Source: Flavobacterium terrisoli (lineage in GTDB: Bacteria; Bacteroidota; Bacteroidia; Flavobacteriales; Flavobacteriaceae). Taken from it: a stretch of DNA of 64,000 bases. The DNA lies in NCBI RefSeq assembly GCF_030167905.1, contig NZ_JARGNA010000007.1, forward strand, positions 144,859 through 208,858. Direction: 5' to 3'. Below the pieces are notes generated by a model. The model made no database searches. It was not told the DNA's origin and was given only the letters and a program-made list of their open reading frames with translations. Shown piece by piece: positions 2,458 through 62,286 of this stretch. Position 1 is the stretch's first letter, and each line of letters begins with the position of its first letter. Position numbers and translations under genes: made by a program.

Positions 2458-5055
2458 ATGAACATAAACAATTTAACAATCAAATCACAAGAAGCGATTC
2501 AGCAGGCACAAGTGATTGCCCAAAGCTTCGGTCACCAGCAAATCGAAAACGAGCATCTCGTTAAAGGCATACTCGAAGTCGATGAGAATGTGACGCCGTT
2601 TATATTGAAAAAGCTCAACGTGAATGTTGACTTATTCAAGAAAATACTTGACAGCACTTTACAAAGCTTTCCGAAAGTTTCGGGTGGCAACATCATGCTT
2701 TCGCGTGAAGCCAATACGGCTTTAAACGAAGCCAATATCATTGCCAAAAAGATGAACGATGAATATGTTTCCATTGAGCATTTACTGTTGGCTATCTTTA
2801 AATCAAAAAGCAAAGTGGCCCAAATCCTGAAAGACCAGGGCGTAACCGAAAAAGCATTGGAAGCCGCGATAGCCGAAATCCGAAAAGGCGAACGCGTGAC
2901 TTCTGCCTCAGCTGAAGAAACTTATAACGCCTTAAACAAATACGCCAAAAACCTCAACGAATTGGCCAAAGACGGCAAACTCGATCCGGTAATCGGTCGT
3001 GATGAAGAAATCCGCCGTGTATTGCAAATCCTAACACGTCGTACCAAGAACAACCCGATGCTCGTGGGTGAACCCGGCGTAGGTAAAACCGCGATAGCCG
3101 AAGGTTTAGCCCATCGAATCGTTGACGGTGACGTGCCGGAAAACCTAAAAGATAAAATCGTGTATTCACTCGATATGGGTGCGCTGATTGCCGGTGCGAA
3201 ATACAAAGGAGAATTTGAAGAGCGTTTGAAATCGGTGGTGAAAGAAGTAACCTCAGCCGAAGGCGATATCGTACTGTTTATTGACGAAATCCACACTTTA
3301 GTTGGTGCCGGCGGTGGCGAAGGTGCAATGGACGCTGCTAATATTTTAAAGCCTGCTTTGGCACGTGGAGAATTAAGAGCGATTGGTGCCACGACTTTGG
3401 ATGAATACCAAAAATATTTCGAAAAAGACAAAGCTCTGGAACGTCGTTTCCAAAAGGTATTGGTCGATGAACCTGATACCGAAAGTGCGATTTCCATCCT
3501 GCGCGGTATCAAGGAGAAATATGAAACACACCACAAAGTGCGCATCAAAGACGATGCAATCATTGCGGCTGTGGAATTATCCCAACGTTATATCACCAAC
3601 CGTTTCCTCCCGGATAAAGCCATCGACTTAATGGACGAATCGGCCTCTAAACTGCGCATGGAAATCAATTCCAAACCCGAAGATCTCGATGTATTGGACA
3701 GAAAGATTATGCAGTTGGAAATCGAAATTGAGGCGATTAAGAGAGAGAATGACGAAACCAAACTCAAAGGATTGGGATTGGATTTGGCCAACTTAAAAGA
3801 AGAGCGCAACGAAATCTTTACCAAATGGAAATCGGAGAAAGATGTGGTGGATAACATACAAAGTGTAAAACAGGAAATCGAAGATTTCAAACTTGAAGCC
3901 GAACGTGCCGAGCGCGATGGTGATTACGGTAAGGTGGCCGAAATCCGTTATGGAAAAATTAAGGAAGCTCAGGAAAAACTGGATGCCTTGCAAACTCAAT
4001 TGGTCGAAAATCAATCGGGAACTTCTTTGATTAAGGAAGAAGTCACCCGCGAAGACATCGCCGAAGTAGTAGCCAAATGGACCGGCATTCCGGTAACCAA
4101 AATGCTTCAGGGCGAAAGGGAAAAGCTATTGCGTCTTGAAGAAGAACTGCACCACAGGGTTGTAGGCCAGGAAGAAGCCATTGAAGCTGTGAGTGATGCC
4201 GTTCGCCGCAGCCGTGCAGGTTTACAGGACATGAAAAAACCGATTGGTACTTTCCTGTTCCTGGGAACCACCGGCGTGGGTAAAACCGAATTGGCAAAAG
4301 CCTTGGCCGAATATTTATTCGATGATGAAAATGCGATGACACGTATCGACATGAGTGAATATCAGGAAAGACACAGCGTGAGCCGATTGGTTGGTGCGCC
4401 TCCGGGATATGTGGGTTATGATGAAGGCGGTCAATTGACTGAGGCTGTTCGCAGAAAACCCTATTCGGTAATCTTGTTGGATGAAATTGAAAAAGCCCAT
4501 CCTGATACGTTTAACATCCTGTTACAAGTATTGGACGAAGGCCGACTAACGGATAACAAAGGACGCTTGGCCGACTTTAAAAACACAATTATCATTATGA
4601 CTTCTAATATGGGAAGCCATATCATACAGGAGAAGTTTGAAAACTTAAAAGGTGGCATTGAAGCCGCAACTGAAGCAGCTAAAACCGAAGTCTTAGGGCT
4701 ATTGAAACAAACCGTTCGCCCTGAGTTCATCAACCGTATCGATGAAATTGTAATGTTTACTCCATTGACCTCAGCCAATATCAAACAAATTGTTGGTCTG
4801 CAGTTACAAAGCGTAACCCGAATGCTCGCTCAACAAAACATCACCATGGATGCCACACCGGAAGCCATTGATTATCTGGCTGAAAAAGGATATGATCCAC
4901 AATTTGGTGCCCGTCCGGTAAAACGTGTGATACAACGCGAAGTATTGAACCAATTGTCTAAGGAAATATTAGCCGGTAAAATCACGACAGATAGTATCAT
5001 CCTGCTCGATAGTTTTGACAGACAACTGGTGTTCCGCAATCAGGCGAATGAATAA
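2458..5055 (+). CDS. clpB: ATP-dependent protein disaggregase ClpB
   Basis: 865 residues, the normal length for ClpB. The order is: an N-terminal double Clp repeat (about 1-145), AAA+ module 1 with Walker A GEPGVGKT (204-211) and Walker B (LFIDEIHT), a coiled-coil middle domain rich in K, E and R (about 400-530), then AAA+ module 2 with GTTGVGKT (603-610) and the arginine-rich C-terminal small domain. ClpB works in the cytosol with DnaK/DnaJ to pull proteins out of aggregates. The start is chosen at 2458 because AAAGGAG lies 10 bases upstream and the N-terminus matches the family. An almost identical start copy lies 141 bases upstream. Confidence 0.97.
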
Positions 5056-7176: not shown

Positions 7177-7368
7177 ATGAAGACAAATCAAAATAAATAC
7201 CGCCACCTATGTACCGTAGCAACAGTATTGTGCCTTTCGTTTTTCTTTAGTTCTTGTGAACTGGTTGAAGGCATATTTAAAGCAGGAATGGGTTTCGGGA
7301 TATTCATAGTCTTAGCAGTAGCCGTTGCGGTTGTTGCCATAATTATCAAAGTCGGTAAAAACAAATAA
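7177..7368 (+). CDS. Small lipoprotein/membrane protein
   Basis: The ATG at 7177 gives 63 residues; an in-frame ATG at 7165 adds four. A signal segment ends in LSFFFSSC, a lipobox. A short Gly-rich linker follows, then one strongly hydrophobic helix (FIVLAVAVAVVAIIIKVG) and a basic tail. Tiny proteins of this kind precede YtxH-type genes in flavobacteria. Function unknown, presumably envelope-associated. First of a close run of five small genes leading to the YihY-like gene. Confidence 0.65.
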   Translation: MKTNQNKYRHLCTVATVLCLSFFFSSCELVEGIFKAGMGFGIFIVLAVAVAVVAIIIKVGKNK

Positions 7369-8205: not shown

Positions 8206-8585
8206 AAACAATTAGTGAAACCGAAGCTTTAGATGAATTAATCATTGCTACCCAGCAACAAGCAGCCCATGAATTGGAGTTGCTCAAAGAACAATTCCAT
8301 GCCGCATATGACAGCTTAAAGCCCATTAATCTTATCAAAAATGCGCTTCACGATTTAACCAAATCACCCGATATCAAAGACGATATGATGAGCAATGCCA
8401 TTGGCATAGGCTCAGGAATGTTGTCTAAAAAACTCCTTACCGGTGATTCAAACAATCCCGTTAGAAAAGTGCTGGGCACTTTGGCCGAATTTGCAGTAGC
8501 CAATTTGGTTTCCAAATATACAGGCGGTATTTCTGTCATAGCTGGCAATTTGTTAAAAGGATTCCTAAACAAAAAAAAGGGATAA
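8202..8585 (+). CDS. Hypothetical protein coupled to the holin-like gene
   Basis: 127 residues, mostly helical. The first half is polar. The second half has moderately hydrophobic, glycine-containing stretches (MMSNAIGIGSGMLSKKLL, GGISVIAGNLLKGFL) and a KKK tail, suggesting membrane association. Its ATG overlaps the previous stop by 4 bases, so it is co-translated with the holin-like protein. I do not recognise a characterised family. Confidence 0.75.
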   Translation: MKTISETEALDELIIATQQQAAHELELLKEQFHAAYDSLKPINLIKNALHDLTKSPDIKDDMMSNAIGIGSGMLSKKLLTGDSNNPVRKVLGTLAEFAVANLVSKYTGGISVIAGNLLKGFLNKKKG

Positions 8586-11848: not shown

Positions 11849-11857
11849 GTTAGTGGC
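11849..11857 (+). other. Core-type site opening the cassette-like array
   Basis: GTTAGTGGC. It is the exact reverse complement of GCCACTAAC found just after the following gene (12729-12737), as expected for the left end of an integron-type cassette. It lies 16 bases before the GTG start of that gene. No integrase gene is adjacent. Confidence 0.6.
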
Positions 11858-11872
11858 AAGCTTTAGTAAACC

Positions 11873-12724
11873 GTGAAAACAGAACCAATAACATATTCTC
11901 TTTCGACCTTTGCACGACCCGATATTTGGCAAGTCAGGGAACTTTCAGAGAAAGAATATTTAAAATATTCTAAAAATATCTCTTCATTACAGAGGTTAGA
12001 AAACAATGAAAAACTATTTAAGATTGTTGAATTAAATTATTTTGACTTTAAAACAAAGATTGAAAAGACAATTAAAAATCTGAATAATGGTACTAATAGT
12101 AAAGAATTTGAAAATCTTTATTTAGACATTAATAGATTGATCTTGAACATCCTTTCTTCTATCAGGACGTATTTAGACCATAGTGAAACAAGGATAAAAA
12201 GAGAATATGGTTCAGAATCAGAAGAATTTTTGCTATTTAAAAAAGAAACGAGTAAAACTTATGACGAGAACTTTTCATATAGATTTCTGTATAAATTAAG
12301 AAATTATGCCCAACATTGTGGTCTACCAGCTGGTTCATTATCTACAAACGCAAATACAACGGGCGCTTCTTTAAAACTAACTTTAATTAAAAGCAATCTA
12401 TTGTCTAACTATAATTCATGGGGAATAACCGTAAAGCAAGAATTAATAAATAAAACAGAAGAATTTGATATAATTCCGCTTATTGACGATAAGTTTACTT
12501 TATTAGAAGAAATAAATAAAAATATTAATGAGCTTTCTTATAGACATTACAAGGATGAGGCACAAGAACTTATGAATTTACTTTGGGAAGCACAAGGTAA
12601 AAATGGAACTCCATGTATTATAAAAACTATTGGGTCTGGTGGAAAACTTAAATTAAATATTAACTGGTTTCCATACAAGCCAATTTCAAAAATAACCGGA
12701 ATTCAAATAGATATCATTGAATAA
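11873..12724 (+). CDS. Cassette gene 1: hypothetical protein with HEPN-like motif
   Basis: 283 residues from a GTG start, helical and very rich in K, N, E and I. Codon use is AT-biased compared with genes on either side. The only recognisable signal is R143-N-Y-A-Q-H148 in KLRNYAQHCGLP, which matches the R-x4-6-H motif (often R-N) of HEPN-domain ribonucleases and toxins. The helical context fits, but the fold assignment is tentative. No antitoxin partner is adjacent. It is the single gene between a core site (11849) and an attC-like site (12729-12867), so it probably arrived as a mobile cassette. Confidence 0.65.
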   Translation: MKTEPITYSLSTFARPDIWQVRELSEKEYLKYSKNISSLQRLENNEKLFKIVELNYFDFKTKIEKTIKNLNNGTNSKEFENLYLDINRLILNILSSIRTYLDHSETRIKREYGSESEEFLLFKKETSKTYDENFSYRFLYKLRNYAQHCGLPAGSLSTNANTTGASLKLTLIKSNLLSNYNSWGITVKQELINKTEEFDIIPLIDDKFTLLEEINKNINELSYRHYKDEAQELMNLLWEAQGKNGTPCIIKTIGSGGKLKLNINWFPYKPISKITGIQIDIIE

Positions 12725-12728
12725 GTCA

Positions 12729-12867
12729 GCCACTAACAGCAGTTTGTAACAGTTGTGCGGTTCGGGTTTATAACTAATTTTCTCTGAAAATTCAAAAAGG
12801 AGTTTTATATTTGGAATCATCAGTCATAAATCATCGCAGCAGTTACAAGCCGCGGCACGTTATGGGC
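12729..12867 (+). other. attC-like recombination site 1
   Basis: Begins with inverse core GCCACTAAC (12729-12737), ends with core GTTATGGGC (12859-12867). Inner arms pair: TTGTAAC (about 12744) with GTTACAA (about 12842), and the outer TAAC with GTTA, with unequal spacers (6 and 10 bases). This is an imperfect hairpin with unpaired bases, as in integron attC sites. Length about 139 bp. The site separates cassette genes 1 and 2. Confidence 0.6.
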
Positions 12868-12898
12868 AAGTTTAACACAATGCTAAAAAAGAAAATTA

Positions 12899-13486
12899 AT
12901 GCTTACAGAAATATCCAAATTGGTAAATGAATATCCAACAATAAGTCTTGCAATCATTGCTGCAATATTTTCTTCCATTGGCTGGGGTTGCAACAGTTTT
13001 TACCAAGTAATCGTAGACAATTACAAACAAAAGAGAGAATTAAAGATTTTCCTTTGGAAAGAAAAGATTAATGCTGCAAAAAAGGCTTCGGAATTTTATC
13101 TTGAGTATTTGAATTTTATCAATCTACTGAGAAATCAGTTAGATATGTTGGCAACTGGTAAAGCAGAGTATGAACAAATAAATAGAAATATTGATGCGGA
13201 AATACAGGAATTATCAAATAAGTTAAAAACCTTTCCTCATTTTGAACATCATCATATTAATATTTTCTACAACTTAATAGAAAATAGAACTCTGAAAATT
13301 AATCAAGAGAATTTTGAAATTCTTGGCAAAATAAATGGTTTAGGATCACTTGGACTATCTTATGAAGAGTTTGATGCTCAGTTAAAAGATTATGTTATAA
13401 AATTTAAAAATAACTACTCAGAATTAGCTAAAATTTATGAAGACCTTATTGAAAAAATAAGAGCCGACATTAATAGTTATCTTTAA
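12899..13486 (+). CDS. Cassette gene 2: hypothetical single-span membrane protein
   Basis: 195 residues. One membrane helix near the N-terminus (about 13-38, TISLAIIAAIFSSIGWGC) precedes a long charged, helical, probably coiled-coil domain. The gene is AT-rich with K, N, E and I excess. No family recognised. It lies alone between GTTATGGGC (12859) and GCCCATAAC (13495), which are exact reverse complements, so this unit has both ends of a cassette. Confidence 0.7.
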   Translation: MLTEISKLVNEYPTISLAIIAAIFSSIGWGCNSFYQVIVDNYKQKRELKIFLWKEKINAAKKASEFYLEYLNFINLLRNQLDMLATGKAEYEQINRNIDAEIQELSNKLKTFPHFEHHHINIFYNLIENRTLKINQENFEILGKINGLGSLGLSYEEFDAQLKDYVIKFKNNYSELAKIYEDLIEKIRADINSYL

Positions 13487-13494
13487 AAAAACCA

Positions 13495-13629
13495 GCCCAT
13501 AACAGCGGATTGCAGCTATGGCTGGTTTAGATTTTCCTAGCCGGAAAATACTCAACCAGAAATTTACATATCTTTACAACTAAACATTAAAAACGCCGCC
13601 ACGGCTGCAAGCCGCGGAACGTTAATAGC
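13495..13629 (+). other. attC-like recombination site 2
   Basis: Inverse core GCCCATAAC (13495-13503) and core GTTAATAGC (13621-13629). The arms form a good imperfect hairpin: TAAC-AGCGGA-TTGCAGC-TATGGC on the left against GCCACG-GCTGCAA-GCCGCGGAAC-GTTA on the right, again with an asymmetric spacer. The right arm shares GCAAGCCGCGG(A)ACGTTA with site 1 (ACAAGCCGCGGCACGTTA), so the two sites belong to one family. Confidence 0.65.
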
Positions 13630-13654
13630 AATTATTCTTTAGACTCCATAAACT

Positions 13655-14521
13655 ATGAACGAAAGAAATAGAAAAGTTTTGACTTTAGTTGTGAAATGGG
13701 ATATGGAAAATTACTTGTACGAGCATGGTTTCAGTTTGGAAGAATTCGGCCAATCCTACTACAAAATGTATATACACGAAGAAAAGCTAGAACAACCTGA
13801 ACATATTTTCAAATACTACAACGATTCCCAAAACAGTATAAATTCATTATTAGAAGGTTACTTCTATTTTTCTGAACCAAAAAAGCTAAATGATCCATTT
13901 GAATGCCTAAATAATAGGGAAAAACAAATTATAAACGCTGCCAGTAATAAAGAGAAAATTATTGAACATAGAGAAAATATTGGAATTTGTTCTTTTAGTT
14001 TAACGAATGAAAGTCCTATATTATGGGGACATTACACAAATAATTATCACGGATTTTGTTTAAGATTTGATAATAATCTCATAAAAATAAATGAAGATTT
14101 ACCCGTTAAAACCCACGTATCATATCTTAAAAAATATGAACCTGCAAATAACTCTTTAAGAGAAGCCAAAAAGCAGATTATGGATGCACAGATTAGTGAA
14201 GATTTAAAATCTGCAATCCATGCACATTTAACGACCGTATTTGAATATAGTTGGAAACAATATGACTGGAATTATGAAAATGAATTTCGGTATTTATCCT
14301 TTAGTGCAAATTCGTTTCAGAGAAAATTTAAATTCGACAAAAATGCTTTACAAGAAATATACATTGATTATCGTATGAGAAGTAGAAATCGTAATGTATT
14401 CAACCTACTAATGTTTATCTTAAAAAACAAATATCCTCACGTAAAAGCATTTGAAGTTAAGCCACATCCATTGGTTGTGAAGTTAGAGTTTAATCAAATA
14501 GAGGTAAAACTTGAAGGATAA
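13655..14521 (+). CDS. Cassette gene 3: DUF2971 protein
   Basis: 288 residues with the DUF2971 pattern: HIFKYYND, then YFYFSEPKKLNDPFEC, ICSFSLTNESPILWGHYTNNYHGFCLRF, and a later W-x-Y-E-x-E-F-R-Y-L segment. DUF2971 proteins are common in accessory and defence-rich regions and in integron cassettes; their activity is unknown. About 40 residues precede the domain. AT-rich like the other two cassette genes. Preceded by core GTTAATAGC (13621) and followed by a decayed inverse core. Confidence 0.85.
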   Translation: MNERNRKVLTLVVKWDMENYLYEHGFSLEEFGQSYYKMYIHEEKLEQPEHIFKYYNDSQNSINSLLEGYFYFSEPKKLNDPFECLNNREKQIINAASNKEKIIEHRENIGICSFSLTNESPILWGHYTNNYHGFCLRFDNNLIKINEDLPVKTHVSYLKKYEPANNSLREAKKQIMDAQISEDLKSAIHAHLTTVFEYSWKQYDWNYENEFRYLSFSANSFQRKFKFDKNALQEIYIDYRMRSRNRNVFNLLMFILKNKYPHVKAFEVKPHPLVVKLEFNQIEVKLEG

Positions 14522-14523
14522 CA

Positions 14524-14582
14524 GCTGCTAATAGTGGTTTAGCCCCCCGCTACCGCACGAATCCTTTCGTGTGGCTAATGGA
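14524..14582 (+). other. Degenerate attC-like site 3
   Basis: CAGCTGCTAATAGTGGTTTAG aligns with the start of sites 1 and 2 (CAGCC-ACTAACAGCAGTTTG). The nine bases at 14524-14532 match six of nine of the expected GCTATTAAC, with three transitions. An internal TTTAGCC/GGCTAA pair and a CACGAA-tcc-TTTCGTG hairpin follow, but no right core is visible. This is probably a decayed right end of the array. Confidence 0.4.
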
Positions 14583-14671
14583 CAGTCAATTATTTTCAGC
14601 ATAATCCTGATAAATAATTAGAATGTGATGCTTCCTTCGTCAGCATGACAAAGATTAAACAAAACGAATCA

Positions 14672-62200: not shown

Positions 62201-62286
62201 AAGTTTCAATTTTGTAAACTCCTACTTTATGGCTGTTCGGTTTTGCCCCGTTTATTATAGTGGTTTCTGGCTCCACATTTGAAATT

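Follow-up and report, generated by a model that had tools for sequence, protein, structure and literature searches.

Integron-type gene cassettes in Flavobacterium terrisoli and a candidate Bacteroidota integrase lacking the IntI-specific insert

Introduction

In the sedentary chromosomal integron (IntI/attI/attC; superintegrons), the recombinase gene adjoins an attI site, and the cassettes, of one gene each, are arranged head to tail, the core at the start of a cassette being complementary to the inverse core at its end. The boundaries lie at G|TT, the sites are imperfect palindromes which can fold, the arrays may be large and their genes are mostly of unknown function. The same traits were found in a group of arrays to which three genes of Flavobacterium terrisoli belong. 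These genes lie in a 64-kb stretch of DNA, hereafter called the window (C14:144859-208858 of a draft genome of 3.50 Mb in 16 contigs, 99.99 % complete; C, G and L numbers denote contigs of this genome, other genomes and individual loci, respectively), and very probably represent gene cassettes of the integron type, belonging to an integron system of Bacteroidota with an integrase other than IntI. The enzyme of this system differs from that of the sedentary chromosomal integron in lacking the IntI-specific insert and in having an extra N-terminal domain, its gene is co-oriented with the cassettes, and in the hairpin of the site there is a 1x5 asymmetric junction next to the R box, together with mispairs whose positions are fixed. 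A reverse orientation of the integrase gene has also been noted for IntIs of Spirochaetota (PMC9668308).

Clusters of attC sites lacking integron integrases (CALIN) have been defined as at least two attC sites less than 4 kb apart with no IntI (PMC9668308), a source in which the insert is also treated as defining for an integron integrase. The array of the window taken alone resembles a CALIN, since it consists of sites and cassettes and has no integrase; in the terms of the definition it has two sites (Table 1) and no recombinase, the sites being those called by the model of this family itself. It differs from a CALIN in that an enzyme of another kind is present elsewhere in the genome, where another array begins with a 99 % identical copy of an attI-like region.

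The best family and Protein Data Bank (PDB) matches of the enzyme are simple tyrosine recombinases of the XerA/XerC type (NF040815 recomb_XerA_Arch; PDB 5hxy, 4a8e), from which it differs in being linked to an attI-like site and to cassette arrays. An 'integron-like' subgroup of simple tyrosine recombinases, in which the insert is incompletely conserved, has been described (PMC8138268); there the insert is tied to integron function, and the accessible parts of that paper report no arrays run by insert-less members. Acquisition of I2, the helix carried by the insert, has been presented as the key innovation, direct proof being unavailable because deletion of I2 from IntI1 abolishes all activity (PMC7790495). 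In a survey of integrons the first round yielded only In0 elements for Bacteroidetes, to which a single complete integron, that of Salinibacter ruber, was added subsequently (PMC9024848). No system such as that reported here was described in the published literature searched, preprints and most subscription journals being outside the search.

Results

Gene cassettes of the window

The three genes are on the plus strand, flanked by a Na/H exchanger gene upstream and by a minus-strand gene. Unit 1 begins with the core GTTAGTGGC at 11849-11857 and ends with its exact reverse complement, GCCACTAAC, at 12729-12737, and unit 2 has the core GTTATGGGC at 12859-12867 and the exact inverse GCCCATAAC at 13495-13503. 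Direct reading thus bore out both pairs, which had been reported in the initial annotation, made from the sequence alone. The third unit was described there as having a core and a decayed end, and both were recovered: the core is GTTAATAGC at 13621-13629 and the end is a decayed remnant, the exact position of which is unsure. Among 456 blocks of 140 bases, five contain TAACAGC, found exactly in the probable remnant, and these five include sites 1 and 2; at least 13 of 18 matches to the expected left arm are likewise found in 5 of the 456 blocks, sites 1 and 2 and the remnant itself included; the site model described below gave no match at the remnant at E ≤ 1.

Pairs of GTTANNNNN and its inverse 400-1100 bp apart in the 64 kb are the two exact pairs only. 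First-order Markov resampling gave a mean of 1.4 such pairs, and linked consecutive pairs occurred in 0 of 40 resamples. The description of the genes as AT-rich and unlike their neighbours was also correct, the GC content of the genes of units 1, 2 and 3 being 28.1, 27.9 and 29.2 %, compared with 47.5 % in the upstream gene and 43.6 and 42.0 % in two downstream genes. No Phage_integrase match (PF00589, E ≤ 0.001) was found in the window, in agreement with the initial annotation; the only match on the contig is at C14:244065, approximately 35 kb outside. The head of the array has no clear attI-like sequence.

Homologues of all three units were found between sites in other species. That of unit 1, in G595 (74 % DNA identity, L227 8241-7343, minus strand), lies between site-model matches at 8230-8366 (99 bits) and 7224-7360 (weak: 33.5 bits, E 1e-4), that of unit 2, in G569 (71 % DNA identity, L228 2695-3370), between sites at 2579-2715 and 3340-3480, and that of unit 3, in G641 (67 % DNA identity, L230 8943-8296, minus strand), between two sites. 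The alignments of the unit 1 and unit 2 homologues begin and end inside the junction sites; in unit 3 the gene alone aligns, and a further homologue of it, in G557 (L229), has no site match. When the window locus was compared with 298 other genomes of the genus, two candidate regions being scored in each, no empty site could be demonstrated, because matches to the upstream transporter and the downstream gene, where both were seen, came from separate places. The presence or absence of single units, suggested initially as a comparison of strains, was seen across species only, in these three homologues, and as identical units within one chromosome (see below).

The site family and the cassette rule

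The right-arm motif of the sites, AGCCGCGGNACGTTA, has 30 matches in the genome with up to two mismatches, compared with 8 for a reversed control, and 23 of the 30 fall in groups of two or more. A covariance model built from 23 sites of the genome found 34 sites there at E ≤ 0.1, i.e. 11 outside the training set (Table 1). The sites are mostly 127-139 bp long (up to 166 bp). The family proposed from the window was thus found both elsewhere in the genome and, as described below, in related genomes.

The five variable bases of the start core were compared with those of the end core of the same unit. In the genome of F. terrisoli 17 of 27 units were perfect, with a mean of 4.04/5, whereas the two ends of one site had a mean of 1.97/5 and an all-against-all comparison 1.90; none of 20,000 permutations reached 4.04. 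In the single-contig chromosome of G647, of the same genus, the rule was perfect in 50 of 50 tested units (0 of 20,000 permutations), and over 12 array stretches it was perfect in 131 of 142 units, a count which overlaps with the others as most of those stretches are included in it. The C12 and C16 arrays, like those of G647, consist of cassettes of the same orientation divided by sites, and of 49 tested units of G647, 48 have their longest open reading frame (ORF) on the strand of the array. As read from these units, the cassette is a gene together with an imperfectly palindromic site, with its boundary at the G|TT of GTTA.

Behind the recombinase of G647 there are 54 sites in 35 kb (19 in L233, 32 in L253 and 3 in L257), and G661 has 29 sites, in two stretches of 21 and 8, behind its own recombinase. 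Seven of eight pairs of like units examined in G647 were identical over their full 447-642 bp (five kinds of cassette), the eighth having a difference of one base in length. The members of these pairs occupy separate places in the chromosome, and the identity of the seven extends past G|TT by only 3-10 nt on the left side and 3-6 nt on the right, mostly into conserved bases. In a like pair in G569 the full unit was not identical.

The recombinase and the attI-like site

A tyrosine recombinase beside such arrays, which the initial annotation had proposed to look for, was found in the genome itself and in homologous loci. At the head of the 13-site C12 array, and co-oriented with it, C12:115855-116898 encodes a tyrosine recombinase of 347 amino acids, with an attI-like site 95 bp after its stop codon. 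Its best curated family is NF040815, described as 'site-specific tyrosine recombinase/integron integrase' (226.7 bits, cut-off 220); with TIGR02249 integrase_gron it scored 207.8 bits against a cut-off of 265, in a match split into 2-178 and 239-315. The best PDB sequence match was 5hxy. The two Xer-like proteins of the genome (L177, L178) are encoded by separate genes.

The domain specific to IntI (I2/patch III region), one of the features which define the canonical integron, is lacking from the enzyme: an insert of about 41 residues with the I2 helix is absent. In an alignment including IntI1 as well as IntIs from the phylum (111 of the 113 loci supplied were retained) the C12 recombinase is without the stretch taken as the IntI-specific region, and its C-terminal end has an IntI-like SPFDDL. 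The KGxKDR and HxxRH motifs are 58-59 residues apart in 76 of 77 homologues (76 of 76 measurable; one without the motif), compared with 100 in 19 of 21 canonical IntIs (19 of 19 measurable; two without the motif) and 66 in the one measurable of the two Xer-like proteins. A quick maximum-likelihood tree of 102 rows (100 of at least 290 amino acids and two rhizobial) placed the 77 homologues apart from the 21 IntIs, the IntI group having a Shimodaira-Hasegawa-like approximate likelihood ratio test (SH-aLRT) value of 99.

The AlphaFold model of the homologue L091, from Flavobacterium buctense, had a mean predicted local distance difference test score (pLDDT) of 83 and a predicted template modelling score of 0.58. 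Residues 1-56 are predicted to form an N-terminal domain of the order beta-beta-alpha-beta-beta-alpha (pLDDT 81 when modelled alone). DUF5710 gave weak matches to this domain in 14 of 42 members (best 1.6e-4) and HARP in 2 of 42 (best 0.027). HARP is a DNA-fork recognition domain. The first Foldseek match was the HARP domain of SMARCAL1, which was non-significant (E 0.32, probability 0.69); HARP was not among the 50 matches listed by VIA-align, which excludes nothing, and a PDB sequence search with the N-terminal profile gave weak unrelated matches only.

The attI-like core was sought after the recombinase as the complement of the inverse core of the first site, in 28 loci with a first site usably placed after the recombinase (those with a distant or truncated first site, e.g. 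L105, L111, L119, L146 and L153, were excluded). It was found with 9 of 9 bases in 27 loci and with 8 of 9 in one, and in 24 of the 28 it is 93-125 bp from the stop codon of the recombinase. CRTATAWR..A|GTT is conserved at the core in those 24 aligned loci. As judged from these loci, arrays begin at an attI-like sequence, mostly 93-125 bp after the stop codon of a co-oriented recombinase without I2. Palindromes noted by eye in the upstream half of the attI-like region vary between species but are repeated inside any one region, a pattern resembling that of a recombinase-binding site. The integrase-less C16 array near 114 kb starts with a copy, 111 bp long and 99 % identical, of the C12 attI-like region; this orphan attI-like site (L051 8024-8134 = C16:114023-114133) has no integrase match in the 4.3-kb stretch searched. 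The site groups in L057 (core at 1236) and L053 likewise begin after CCTATAAATTA or a near variant. Promoter-like TAnnTTTG motifs were present in 14 of the 24 stretches behind the recombinase stop codon, a count for which there was no control and from which nothing is claimed.

Structure of the sites

Covariation was assessed in 114 of 127 aligned sites, 13 being dropped for a missing AAC or GTT anchor; the full conservation of AAC and GTT in this set follows from their use as selection criterion. Left position i pairs with right position -(i+4) for i = 11-28, with Watson-Crick pairs in 63-96 % of the sites, except at 15 and 24, and many stem positions have three or four types of pair. Since the model with which the sites were found itself contains part of the stem, these counts are somewhat biased. 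TAAC and GTTA pair in register 0, which is true also of all 51 unfiltered sites of G647. With register 0 followed by +4, A10 of the folded site would lie next to the R box, opposite five bases which are mostly GGNAC. Watson-Crick pairing is missing at 15/-19, where T.G predominates, and at 24/-28, where A.C does, in 82 % of the set of 114; for the sites of G647 the values are 98 and 96 %, respectively.

The hairpins of the window, for which a comparison with shuffled sequence had been proposed, differed: against dinucleotide shuffles the z of the fold energy (top/bottom strand) was -3.5/-5.0 for site 2, and a weak -1.7/-1.8 for site 1. The canonical attC is described by an unpaired central spacer, extrahelical bases and a variable terminal structure (PMC8946536), and by these terms the landmarks of the present sites look different. 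Twelve canonical-IntI loci of the phylum, searched for canonical attC sites as a structural control, gave no usable set, so that the comparison with canonical attC rests on published papers.

Linkage and distribution in Bacteroidota

Searches with the site model were made within genomes of the phylum. At 65 named homologue loci, mostly of Flavobacterium and including records titled Epilithonimonas, Kaistella, Chitinophaga, Cyclobacteriaceae and others, there were 105 matches at E ≤ 0.01, of which 103 were downstream on the recombinase strand; of the remaining two, one was on the opposite strand of the same palindrome and one upstream (L151). This downstream bias was found despite 70 % of the searched flanking bases being upstream. 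Downstream sequence of at least 700 bp was available in 44 loci, and 31 of these had a site. Among 14 loci of distant homologues (41-54 % identity) 7 had matches at E ≤ 0.1, all downstream on the recombinase strand (L183, L187, L189, L191-L194).

Across 249 genomes of Flavobacteriaceae (recombinase at E ≤ 1e-60; sites at E ≤ 1e-4, with up to 12 candidates scored per genome) site matches were found in 186 and the recombinase in 145; 130 genomes had both and 48 neither (odds ratio 7.4, Fisher p 1.7e-10, uncorrected for relatedness). The recombinase profile was found in 93 of 292 genomes of the phylum and in 11 of 18 of the genus. Canonical IntI was over the cut-off in 84 of 296 genomes of the phylum, in 0 of 18 of the genus and in none of the 8 array-bearing genomes examined, of which three are single-contig. 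Some genomes of other classes, e.g. G249, G254 and G264, have canonical IntI over the cut-off together with this recombinase.

A homologous recombinase is carried by a plasmid of Chryseobacterium sp. SNU WT5 from rainbow trout kidney (NZ_CP041688.1, L175), with one strong site match on the recombinase strand and one weak (E 0.011); the downstream genes include a group II intron reverse transcriptase and an IS110 transposase. Within L090-L154, 26 of the 49 loci with a full upstream flank end within 2.2 kb downstream of the recombinase, and contigs ending soon after the recombinase would be expected if repeated sites break assemblies. A homologue with 42 % identity (L149 2558-3547) is present in a metagenome-assembled genome of a Candidatus Alkanophagales archaeon, on a 3.7-kb, possibly stray contig which has no site match.

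Coordinates and gene content

The features of the window and the site groups of the genome are listed in Table 1. Cassette genes are mostly of unknown function: none of 10 C12 cassette proteins tried matched Pfam at 1e-3, and PADLOC candidate phage-defence families were matched by 2 of 10 cassette proteins tried, that of unit 3 and one encoded on C16 (PDC-S47, 1.2e-6). The only Rfam match of the window at the gathering threshold is an unrelated DUF805 RNA (RF03081, 59.3 bits) at 62215-62281 on the minus strand.

Table 1 Cassettes, genes and sites of the window (window positions) and site groups of the genome (contig positions)
Feature	Position	Strand	Remarks
Cassette unit 1	11850..12859	+	TT of core GTTAGTGGC to G of next core; core/inverse core exact
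Unit 1 ORF, 283 aa, GTG start as listed	11873..12724	+	no Pfam family above cut-off
attC-like site 1 (R2 GCCACTAAC ... R1 GTTATGGGC)	12729..12867	+	103.9 bits; one of 23 model training sites
Cassette unit 2	12860..13621	+	cores GTTATGGGC / GCCCATAAC exact
Unit 2 ORF, 195 aa	12899..13486	+	no Pfam family above cut-off
attC-like site 2	13495..13629	+	117.4 bits; also training site
Cassette unit 3	13622..14545 (right end approximate)	+	core GTTAATAGC; end decayed
Unit 3 ORF, 288 aa, DUF2971	13655..14521	+	Pfam 1.4e-9; PADLOC PDC-S31 8.9e-32
Probable left-arm remnant of third site	14519..14542	+	TAACAGC at 14519 and 13/18 match at 14524
Site group, 13 sites	C12:106409-115204	-	covariance model
Site group, 8 sites	C16:114656-119401		covariance model
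Site group, 6 sites, more decayed	C16:52119-60889		covariance model
Site groups of C10 (2 sites) and of the window (2 sites)			covariance model
Single sites	C14:92243, C11:371434, C16:136445		covariance model

Discussion

The initial annotation had left a choice between a CALIN-like remnant and a cassette system of another recombinase. The cluster in the window is indeed without an integrase locally, and the evidence from the whole genome and from other species favours the latter. This assignment is made from sequence features, namely the cassette structure with its precise unit boundaries, the position of the attI-like site, its linkage with the recombinase, the missing insert and the covarying hairpin. 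We infer that catalysis is by this recombinase, that it acts on a single strand and that polarity is set by the asymmetry of the site. As the arrays appear to work like those of an integron, and the IntI-specific domain is lacking, the system is classed as integron-like.

Several results weigh against this reading. No site match was found in 13 of the 44 loci with sufficient downstream sequence or, at E ≤ 0.1, in 7 of the 14 loci of distant homologues, and among the genomes of the family 56 had sites without the recombinase and 15 the recombinase without sites, which may be due to the thresholds, the limit of 12 candidates or draft assemblies. The group of homologues had an SH-aLRT value of only 80, with a program warning on long branches. 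The fold energies were only weakly better than those of shuffles in two of four sites; because single-strand fold energy was weak there, it was replaced as structural evidence by covariation across sites, which we regard as the stronger indication of a hairpin, and which by itself would be equally expected of a long double-stranded inverted repeat. Finally, I2 has been reported as necessary for cassette capture (PMC7790495).

Dispersed and repeated imperfect palindromes, some of them single (e.g. C14:92243 and C11:371434), might also be non-autonomous elements, such as miniature inverted-repeat transposable elements or repetitive extragenic palindromes, hopping between ordinary genes. This is scarcely credible here, as the cores at the start and end of a unit match, whereas the two ends of one site do not, the sites share an orientation in the arrays read, with the longest ORF of nearly every G647 unit following it, and the unit which is copied is gene plus site, cut at G|TT. 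The sites could alternatively be ordinary attC sites forming a true CALIN, from which a canonical IntI has been lost or on which it acts from elsewhere, the neighbouring XerA-like recombinase being unrelated. The absence of an integrase from the window array, the obedience of core and inverse core to the integron rule and the occurrence of canonical IntI in the phylum would all agree with this, but canonical IntI was over the cut-off in none of the sampled genomes of the genus or of the 8 array-bearing genomes, and the attI-like site stands 93-125 bp behind the I2-less recombinase in 24 of the 28 loci, which makes such an origin very improbable.

A closer question is whether the same cassettes and recombinase use double-stranded recombination, with a crossover like that of Xer at dif, in which case the hairpin would only reflect the presence of paired binding sites. 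The enzyme is Xer-like and without I2, and inverted binding sites covary in double-stranded systems too. We nevertheless consider this unlikely. A short two-box core site would differ from the present sites, in which some 120 bp separate the R boxes and the arms are paired from position 11 to 28, offset by four bases and with two conserved mispairs; in addition, compensatory changes involve up to four types of pair at several positions.

In the integron-type system which we favour, one strand of the site would fold to a hairpin, bringing together R boxes which are about 120 bp apart in the duplex. The recombinase would then cut at G|TT and join the folded site either to double-stranded attI or to a second folded site. 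Polarity would be marked by the offset of four bases together with the conserved mispairs, so that cassettes would enter in one direction. Arrays without an integrase, such as that of the window, would be served in trans. As a substitute for I2, the DUF5710/HARP-like N-terminal domain is the first candidate, and is offered as a lead only.

It is possible, and is put forward tentatively, that Bacteroidota have a second kind of integron, of an origin independent of IntI or representing a state before I2, in which an Xer-like enzyme would recombine folded sites without I2 and read the hairpin by means of its HARP/DUF5710-like domain and a different landmark of the site. I2 would then be only one of two or more ways in which single-strand recombination of cassettes can be achieved, and the arrays are a natural test of whether the helix is needed for it. 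Integron surveys seek IntI with its special insert; if the arrays work as proposed here, Flavobacteriaceae would be rich in cassette platforms which searches based on IntI would miss.

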